The position numbers were made by a program, and so were the translations under genes. The notes under the pieces were generated by a model. It was not told the origin of the DNA and did no database searches. It worked only from the letters and a program-made list of their open reading frames with translations. 64,000 nt of DNA from Cheilinus undulatus (lineage: Eukaryota; Chordata; Actinopteri; Labriformes; Labridae): the NCBI RefSeq assembly GCF_018320785.1, contig NC_054886.1, forward strand, positions 35,214,110 through 35,278,109. The letters are read 5' to 3'. Shown here one piece after another: positions 12,473 through 51,825 of this stretch. How positions within the stretch are numbered: position 1 is the first letter of the stretch; each line of letters begins with the position of its first letter.

Positions 12473-14574
12473 TCAAACCCCGGGCGCGTTCAGGGCCAGG
12501 GAGTACGCGGCCATCATCTGCGCGCGGAGCTGCTGCTTGACGTGCACGCGCCCGTGCCTCTTCCTCTCGTCGCTGCGCGCGAACCTTTTCCCGCACACGT
12601 CGCAGGAGAAGGGCTTCTCTCCGGTGTGCGTGCGCGTGTGCGTGGTCAGGTGGTCGCTGCGGCTGAAGCTGCGCGCGCAGATGGTGCAGGTGAAGGGCTT
12701 CTGCCCCGTGTGGATGCGCACGTGCCTGTTGAGCTCGTCGGAGCGCGAGAAGCGGCGCTCGCACCCTTGCACCGAGCACGGGAACGGCTTCACCTTCAGC
12801 CCGGTCTTGGAGGCTCTCCGGCCCCCTCGTGACAGTTTGGGGGCTCCAGGCGCGTGCACGCTGCCGATGTTGACTATCGGGAACGCGCCCTGCAGGAGGG
12901 AGGAGAGGAGCTGAGCGTCCAGGGTAGAGGGGAGAGGGGAGGGGGAGAAGTTCTGCACGAGCTCCGTCTTCACTGTCGGTCTGCTGGTGACGTCACTGGA
13001 ATCTCCCCCGGTAACGGGAGCAGCAGACAAACTCTTCAACCAGTCCTCCAGACCCAGCGGCTCCTGCTTCACCTCACAGCCGGCCCCCAGCTCGCCCTGC
13101 CCGGCCTCGGCGCTCAGCAGAGAGTCGATGAAGTCGGAGACCTCCAGCGGGAGGAGAGCGTCCGCGCTGCCCGCGAACAGAGCATCACCGCCGGCCACAG
13201 AGGGCTGCCCGCACCCGCTGCTGCAGCTGGAGCTCACAAACTCGCTCTTCACCACCACGGGCTGAGCGGCGGGGGGCAGCAGCTGGTCCGTGGCCCCGGC
13301 GGGGACGCCGATGTCAGAGCTGGGAGTCAGACAGGGAGATGGGGCGTAGAGGGAGGCTGCAGCAGCGGGCGAAGAGCTGGCGTCTCCCTGCTGCTCCATC
13401 TCAGTGCAGATCCCCACGATCTCTGTGATCATGTTGAGGATGGCGTCCGCTGTGCTGCTCAGCCCCGCCGCTGCTGCTGCTGGTGCTGCTGGAGCCGGCT
13501 CCGGTTCGGCGAAGAAGCTGCCGGTGTAGCCCAGGGAGGGAGAGAGCGTGTCCGAGGAGCAGTCGCTGAAGTCGGAGAAGAAATCTGAGTCAGAGGCGTC
13601 CGCTCCCGGAGAGAACACTGAAGAGAGAGAGAGGAGGAGGAGGAGGGGGAGTTAGAGCCATTGCATAATAGCAGCTGAGCAGCCTACACACAACTGATCA
13701 ATAAGAAGCTGCAGCTGCAGCTAGGGCCGGGCAACAAGTACAGTTCACATAGAGATCGATGCGTTGATTTTTTTAATCACAAGATCATTTTAAATGATGG
13801 CTATTTATCATTTTAGCATAAATAGCAACAAAAATCATTTTAATGGTCAGATAAATTGCACAAATATGTTGTCAACTTTTGGAGAAGTTACTAGAACTTG
13901 TGAGGCTTGGTCCATTTGTGCAATTTAGACTAGCTTTGGGTGAAAAATATGACTAGAGGTCATAAAGTTGACACACTGTTTGGTGCCAAAATCATTCAAA
14001 TAATGGAGATTTGATCATTCGGATACATATGACACATACAGAAGAGCTTTTTTTTTGCAATTTAAACCACATGTGTGTAATGTTTGGTTATCAAAATGCC
14101 CAATATTTATCGCAAAAAGTTGTTTGGAAATGTTTCGGTGCATTTTTAGCAGTTTTTCCTGCAAAATTTGATCATTAAAATCCCTGATGTTGTTGCAGAA
14201 AGGCTCCAGTGTGGTTTATTTATGACTAGAATTATATTAAAGTGTATAAACATTAAAATATTGGTGTTTGCATCATGCATTGGCGTCCAGCTCTCAGATC
14301 TGAGGATTCTGGACCGTAGTGGACCTTGTTGCCCAGCCCTAGCTGCACCAACATCTGAAGATCAACAGATGCACACTGAAGCTGCTGCACGTTCTCATCA
14401 CTAATCAGTCTAATACAGCTATCGATCAGTGATTGGCTGACGCTCACCTTGGCTGAAAGGTGACCCCACGTCAGATTCGGTTCCGTCGCTGGGGCTCGAG
14501 CCCACACTGTCCACCCAGGCGCTGCACGCGTCCTCAAACTCCGACATGAAGCTGTCCTCGCGCTCCAGAAGCAT
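12473..14574 (-). CDS. egr4: Early growth response protein 4 (EGR4), C2H2 zinc-finger transcription factor
   Basis: Nuclear immediate-early transcription factor that binds GC-rich EGR sites. Two coding exons: 14574-14448 (ATG, 42 codons plus one base; donor CAAG|GTGAGC) and 13617-12473 (acceptor CTCTTCAG|TG); joined they give 423 codons plus stop. Three tandem C2H2 fingers occupy residues about 320-405, with the EGR-type helices [16 protein letters not shown] and RSDERKRH. I choose EGR4 over EGR1-3 because finger 1 has ELNRH (EGR1-3 have ELTRH), the N-terminal half has the GYTGSFF block followed by a hydrophobic [11 protein letters not shown] block, and the C-terminus [10 protein letters not shown] matches the YSLGLSFASL end of mammalian EGR4. 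The rest is Ser/Ala/Pro-rich. EGR genes are characteristically two-exon genes with one intron, as here; the intron contains a hAT-like insertion. It lies head to head with cyp17a2, about 9 kb apart. Confidence 0.9.
13722..14341. mobile_element. hAT-like non-autonomous element in the egr4 intron
   Basis: Terminal inverted repeats TAGGGCCGGGCAACAAG (13722) and CTTGTTGCCCAGCCCTA (ending 14341) pair at nearly every base. They are flanked by 8-bp duplications GCTGCAGC (13714-13721) and GCTGCACC (14342-14349), one mismatch. An 8-bp duplication with TAGGGC-type ends is typical of hAT. There is no transposase frame in the 620 bp. It fills most of the only egr4 intron. Confidence 0.85.

Positions 14575-51825: not shown

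Follow-up and report, generated by a model that had tools for sequence, protein, structure and literature searches.

Is cyp17a2 a product of the teleost genome duplication (3R), or is it an older gene that tetrapods have lost? This question is raised by a 64,000-nucleotide stretch of the Cheilinus undulatus genome (C22:35214110-35278109, hereafter the window, in an assembly of 1.17 Gb in 46 contigs), in which we identified three genes: egr4 (-), a complete nine-exon cyp17a2 (+) and a four-exon wbp1 (-). In the literature, cyp17a2 is described as "teleost-specific" and as derived from a "fish-specific genome duplication" (PMC9744770); the teleost duplication is named as its possible cause (PMC9207535); either an individual duplication or the teleost duplication is suggested (PMC3012610); and, in another view, the gene was independently gained, for want of a shared neighbor. 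Using searches of this one species' own genome, we arrived at a different explanation as the best one overall, to which we assign a probability of about 0.85: cyp17a2 is an ohnologue of CYP17A1 dating from the vertebrate genome duplications (2R), the pairing of CYP17 with WBP1 is ancestral, and tetrapods lost cyp17a2.

An earlier, sequence-only reading of this DNA had proposed the gene order egr4 (-), CYP17 gene (+), wbp1 (-), with cyp17a2 and wbp1 tail to tail. Exon models and Pfam matches confirmed this order at the proposed positions, and the 3' ends of cyp17a2 and wbp1 converge across 9.2 kb. The end points given in that reading correspond to the egr4 stop codon (12473) and the wbp1 start codon (51825).

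We found that the window segment has a counterpart on contig C4. There, a second egr4 (C4:35626061-35626339, -) is the closest EGR match to the window egr4, with 80% identity over the fingers (among the best 150 of 3547 candidates) vs 67-73% for five further EGR-type loci. A second wbp1 is present at C4:35704816-35705703 (-), with two exons just below it. In both order and strands, the egr4 (-) and wbp1 (-) of C4:35.63-35.71 Mb match those of the window, and this interval is best read as the 3R partner of the window segment. No CYP17 exon was detected in it among the matches scored by two CYP17 queries (best 89 of 232 and best 83 of 240). Similarly, tblastn at E 0.5-1 over parts of the second egr4-wbp1 gap and just beyond wbp1l, a search that excluded 45.6 kb of the gap (C4:35.65-35.69 Mb), revealed no convincing cyp17 relic; a single weak CYP17 match in the gap (33% identity, E 0.1, one stop) was taken as chance.

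A WBP-1 search of the genome, with 24 of 24 candidates scored, returned seven exon matches at four loci: the window wbp1, the second wbp1, a gene at C4:17379120-17386621 (-) that we assign to wbp1l, and a locus on C17 that is presumably a VOPP1-like gene. The window wbp1 is 87% identical over 86 residues to the second wbp1, vs 62% over 80 residues to wbp1l, and we thus rejected the possibility that it is a mistaken wbp1l; these assignments were made from motifs and identities, with the junction residues of the C4 copies assumed. The window gene also carries what we take to be the motif that distinguishes WBP1 from WBP1L.

The cyp17a1 gene resides in a different neighborhood, at C6:4247354-4256244 (-). 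This was the only other locus, among the matches scored, to match most of CYP17 at 59-72% identity; the remaining matches were short or below that range and resembled other P450 families. None of the seven WBP-1 matches is on C6. An nt5c2-type gene (C6:4293430-4305722, -) lies 37 kb upstream of cyp17a1, and another, at C4:17241779-17257929 (+), is identical to it at 58 of 59 residues in one exon; a third, on C17, is less similar to the C6 copy (77-79% identity), in a comparison that covered the C4 and C17 copies and left out further loci on C9 and C11. The own-genome search found no nt5c2-type match on C22. Between the C4 nt5c2-type gene and wbp1l is a cnnm gene (C4:17360941-17361420, -). Human 10q24 gene lists include WBP1L, CYP17A1, AS3MT, CNNM2 and NT5C2 (PMC12083599), and the legend of a quantitative trait locus figure for rainbow trout gives wbp1l, cyp17a1, borcs7 and nt5c2 as consecutive (PMC7573577). 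C6:4.25-4.31 Mb and C4:17.24-17.39 Mb are best interpreted as teleost duplicates of one segment, the one represented in human by WBP1L-CYP17A1-...-CNNM2-NT5C2. In both copies, nt5c2 is directed towards the partner gene, and cyp17a1 shares the strand of nt5c2 while wbp1l is opposite to it; the strands are therefore as expected from an ancestral tail-to-tail cyp17a1-wbp1l pair. The two copies appear to have undergone reciprocal loss after 3R, with cyp17a1 kept on the C6 copy and wbp1l on the C4:17.3 copy.

These pairings bear directly on the proposal that cyp17a1 and cyp17a2 are the two teleost-duplication copies of one gene, which is stated in PMC9744770 and suggested in PMC3012610 and PMC9207535, and which gains some room from our trees, where a grouping of the teleost A1 and A2 genes was not rejected (see below). 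The cyp17a2 segment pairs with C4:35.6-35.7 Mb, and the cyp17a1 segment with C4:17.2-17.4 Mb. Because their 3R partner segments differ, the two genes are not products of 3R, and we rejected this origin as barely credible. PMC9141715 likewise rejects 3R; we agree with it on this point and disagree on the neighbors, as wbp1 and wbp1l form a shared pair under different names.

Both CYP17 loci thus have paralogous neighbors: wbp1 in the window, and wbp1l with cyp17a1 in trout and in the human 10q24 list. In the trout legend, cyp17a1 is listed beside wbp1l, not wbp1. The human and trout segments (10q24 and Omy1) resemble the window in that a CYP17 gene adjoins a WBP1-family gene, and differ in that the partner is wbp1l, whereas the window has wbp1, with egr4 on the other side.

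We take human WBP1L and CYP17A1 to be convergent on 10q24, and WBP1 to lie near EGR4 on 2p13, where INO80B, EXOC6B and CYP26B1 presumably also reside. A homeobox gene table places TLX1/TLX2 and LBX1/LBX2 on 10q24.32/2p13.1 and pairs of EMX and VAX genes on 10q26/2p13, and the same source names an NKL or MetaHox paralogon on 2p/8p, 4p, 5q and 10q (PMC2211742). Given the paralogy of wbp1 and wbp1l and these 10q24/2p13 pairs, the simplest account is that one pre-2R CYP17-WBP1 pair was doubled at 2R. Before 2R, single CYP17 and WBP1/WBP1L genes would have formed a tail-to-tail pair. One 2R daughter, of the human 10q24 type, would have retained CYP17A1-WBP1L, and the other, of the 2p13 type, cyp17a2-wbp1 near egr4. 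3R would then have doubled both segments, leaving in this fish egr4-cyp17a2-wbp1 on C22 and egr4-wbp1 on C4:35.7 as copies of the 2p13 type, and cyp17a1-nt5c2 on C6 and wbp1l-cnnm-nt5c2 on C4:17.3 as copies of the 10q24 type. Tetrapods would have lost cyp17a2, a step that draws on papers listing one CYP17 copy there. Of this history, the genes present, their order and strands, and the two distinct 3R pairings are shown directly, and the 2R timing and the tetrapod loss are inferred. Together, the separate 3R partners, the trout wbp1l-cyp17a1 neighborhood and the 10q24/2p13 pairs support the sequence-only reading, in which cyp17a2 is an ancient ohnologue instead of a duplicate confined to fish, and a small tree favors it.

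Elsewhere on C22 we found further genes of types present on human 2p13: an ino80b-type gene at 24.16 Mb, which is the only PAPA-1 match in the genome, an exoc6-type gene at 29.41-29.45 Mb, and a P450 exon that reads like CYP26B1 at 29.59 Mb. At C20:7.23-7.28 Mb, a CYP26A1-like exon accompanies an exoc6-type gene. The LOXL and SFXN families had no match on C22, in a search whose matches were not sorted into orthologues. CYP26B1-EXOC6B and CYP26A1-EXOC6 (human 2p13/10q23) offer a parallel, being P450 paralogues with a paralogous neighbor on the same two arms; unlike CYP17A1/CYP17A2, both members survive in tetrapods. The proposed history also resembles the class of "ohnologues gone missing", in which a 2R duplicate is retained in fish and absent from tetrapods, with the difference that the CYP17 pair is recognized through one paralogous neighbor (wbp1/wbp1l), masked by gene names.

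The cyp17a2 gene occupies 23645-31631 (+) and encodes 521 amino acids in nine exons, with GT-AG at all eight introns and no internal stops; exon ends were set by eye. Its exons, and a minisatellite that ends 10 bp before the start codon, are as follows.

23431-23635, no strand: 22-bp tandem repeat, about 9 copies (the minisatellite)
23645-23877, + strand: cyp17a2 exon 1, ending within codon 78, phase 2
25036-25156, + strand: cyp17a2 exon 2
28029-28167, + strand: cyp17a2 exon 3
28284-28513, + strand: cyp17a2 exon 4
28850-28936, + strand: cyp17a2 exon 5
29049-29264, + strand: cyp17a2 exon 6, with the I-helix AEAFGAGVETTST
30602-30771, + strand: cyp17a2 exon 7, with Asn377 in place of human Arg358
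31191-31294, + strand: cyp17a2 exon 8
31366-31631, + strand: cyp17a2 exon 9, with the haem-binding FGAGPRVCVGE (residue 452) and the stop codon

The protein matches the Pfam p450 family with an E-value of 6e-127. In a comparison with all PDB chains, the top match was zebrafish CYP17A2 (4r20, E 6e-209), followed by zebrafish CYP17A1 and human CYP17A1, and identities were 67%, 51% and 41%, respectively. With a P450 domain that carries the haem-binding Cys motif, nine exons, and a sequence nearer to zebrafish A2 than to the available A1s, the gene is of the CYP17A2 type; zebrafish cyp17a2 (chromosome 23), which also has nine exons, is its orthologue.

Because its introns are retained, cyp17a2 is not a retrocopy, and we rejected that origin. 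This result bears on the idea that, at some time after 2R and no later than in the ray-finned line, a single-gene copy of cyp17a1 landed beside wbp1, so that the shared neighborhood is coincidental. Such a jump finds room in the tree, and the cyp17-wbp1 adjacency is known here from teleosts alone. However, apart from having kept every intron, the copy would have had to land 3' of the paralogue of CYP17A1's neighbor, again tail to tail, for which our own rough estimate of chance is below 1 in 10,000 (assuming ~25,000 genes and four WBP1-family loci). We consider this scenario quite improbable.

We also assessed the age of the CYP17 split by phylogeny. The main tree contained the window A2, zebrafish A2, zebrafish A1 (4r1z), this fish's A1, human A1, and human and bovine CYP21, and it placed A2 outside a group of A1 and human with support of 95/94. 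In this tree, 4r1z was used in place of PDB chain 6b82 because the latter looks engineered: both chains bear the name zebrafish CYP17A1, and 7 of 430 positions in 6b82 differ from 4r1z, partly towards CYP17A2 residues. Residues at the start of the 4r1z row, beyond the reach of that chain, were kept from the 6b82 row. The human A1 row, 4nkv, was retained although it seems altered at one residue (ILSNN vs IASNN in another human chain). With 6b82, support was 97/96 in a six-row tree and 94/91 in a seven-row tree, and a nine-row tree that included CYP1C was less resolved, with inner forks below 80. Use of 6b82 as wild type could bias CYP17 trees. The small tree thus leans towards a CYP17 split older than the split of fish and human, without proving it. 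Identities within this species fit such a split, as its A1 is about as close to human A1 (50.4%) as to its own A2 (49.8%). Two larger published trees group teleost cyp17a1 with tetrapod CYP17A1 and set teleost cyp17a2 apart (PMC9141715, PMC9503316); gar is sampled in both, and coelacanth in PMC9503316. As non-teleost evidence, we rejected an Amur sturgeon "cyp17a2" label, as the ~13 residues derived by eye from its two primers are a mix of A1-like and A2-like states and decide nothing.

Several observations weigh against a 2R origin. A clade of all teleost CYP17 genes was 5.6 log units worse in the main tree and was not rejected (p-AU 0.067; 0.088-0.163 under four models with a fixed alignment), and among the trees with 6b82 the six-row set had p-AU values of 0.063 and 0.087-0.188, the seven-row set 0.102 and the nine-row set 0.32. 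Zebrafish A1 shares slightly more with its own A2 (53.1% raw identity) than with human A1 (50.5%), and human A1 is a long branch. The ino80b-, exoc6- and cyp26-type genes of C22 lie 5.6-11 Mb from the window and are not adjacent to it. Finally, our comparison of cyp17a2 sequences and loci is confined to teleosts.

The depth of the A1-A2 divergence (50% identity) would also fit two CYP17 genes that stood in tandem before 2R, with different survivors on the two paralogous segments, as would the difference in intron number: this fish's cyp17a1 comprises eight exon blocks (ends set by eye), as against nine exons in cyp17a2, and zebrafish likewise has eight and nine (table in PMC3012610). An origin of this kind requires an extra duplication and extra losses, and each CYP17 exon was found once on C6 and once on C22 among the matches scored; we therefore judge it very improbable. 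The additional intron of cyp17a2, after exon 1, is absent from this fish's cyp17a1, in which the frame is open across the site. We tried this intron (phase 2, codon 78) as a character for dating and rejected it. Its site coincides with neither the first intron of CYP2 genes nor that of CYP21, and the intron thus fails to show whether cyp17a1 or cyp17a2 changed.

To our reading, some shared gene order may have been noticed earlier, as Table 3 of PMC3012610 compares human CYP17A1 with both zebrafish genes, CYP17A1 and A2, under "synteny comparison", in passages that name no neighboring genes. In the open-access literature, we found no paper that mentions cyp17a2 together with any word that starts with wbp1.

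The likely function of the window enzyme follows from its relatives and its sequence. CYP17A2 of tilapia and medaka performs C17 hydroxylation without side-chain cleavage, as reported in PMC3012610; cortisol is low in zebrafish that lack cyp17a2 (PMC9207535), and male tilapia lacking the gene show low DHP and cortisol (PMC9744770). The I helix of the window protein has the A2 form AEAFGAGVETTST, in common with zebrafish A2, whereas the A1s compared have GDIFGAGVETT. At the position of human Arg358, the residue is Asn377 in the window A2 and Cys in zebrafish A2, but Arg in human A1, this fish's A1 and zebrafish A1 (4r1z); the Cys at this place in chain 6b82 is taken to be an engineered change. 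Changes of Arg358 and Arg347 cause isolated lyase deficiency. The replacement in the window protein is only a hint that 17,20-lyase activity may be missing. We predict that cyp17a2 most likely encodes a 17-alpha-hydroxylase of the microsomal type, which has little 17,20-lyase activity and supplies the synthesis of cortisol and progestins (C21).

The neighboring wbp1 gene encodes a protein of 912 residues (2739 bases, by manual count of exon ends). Exons 1-3 and the start of exon 4 together match all 102 positions of the Pfam WBP-1 family (E 3e-44).

51681-51825, - strand: wbp1 exon 1, with the start codon; end counted by hand
47696-47857, - strand: wbp1 exon 2; ends counted by hand
45756-45960, - strand: wbp1 exon 3, with the PPPPY WW-binding motif; ends counted by hand
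40822-43048, - strand: wbp1 exon 4, ~740 codons with a Ser/Pro/Thr-rich tail and the stop codon (40822)

On C4, the other wbp1 copy ends in a far shorter tail, and its frame runs uninterrupted through the last-intron site; the two copies thus differ in both tail and intron.

On the other side of cyp17a2, egr4 was modeled as one main coding exon and one tentative one.

12473-13651, - strand: egr4 main coding exon, an open frame with three C-terminal C2H2 zinc fingers
14422-14574, - strand: candidate egr4 first coding exon, a tentative open frame whose splice site is not settled

Seven EGR-type loci head the matches listed for the EGR query, followed by other zinc-finger genes at 62% identity or less. 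EGR1-3 carry an EGR_N domain; in the Pfam scan, the 18 families with E<=1 did not include it. The wording of the fingers (DELNRH, CDVCG) is, we assume, that of EGR4. Beyond the fingers the two egr4 copies diverge strongly, with 46% identity over 349 aligned residues.

None of the remaining open frames that were read resembled a further gene; the Pfam scan covered ten frames. The interval between egr4 and cyp17a2 contains two long minisatellites, one at 16128-17112 (23-bp unit, ~44 copies) and one at 18399-19035 (30-bp unit, ~21 copies, 96% matches). The 3' element of a UnaL2 long interspersed nuclear element is present at 4917-4970 (Rfam RF00436, 56.3 bits) and adjoins a 1-kb AAT-rich array.

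What would a 2R origin mean for the CYP17 family? Tentatively, and at slightly less than even odds, we suggest that the jawed-vertebrate ancestor possessed both a CYP17A1 with hydroxylase and lyase activities, serving sex steroids, and a CYP17A2 with hydroxylase activity only, serving cortisol and progestins; that tetrapods lost the latter and merged both jobs on one enzyme; and that the "teleost-specific" label persists because the shared neighbor carries two names, wbp1 and wbp1l. With a 2R origin, the split between dual-function and hydroxylase-only CYP17 would be ~200 million years older and would have been common to the ancestors of land vertebrates. Both the tetrapod loss of cyp17a2 and a union of cortisol with androgen synthesis on one enzyme would thereby become testable in the genomes of gar, coelacanth, lungfish and shark.

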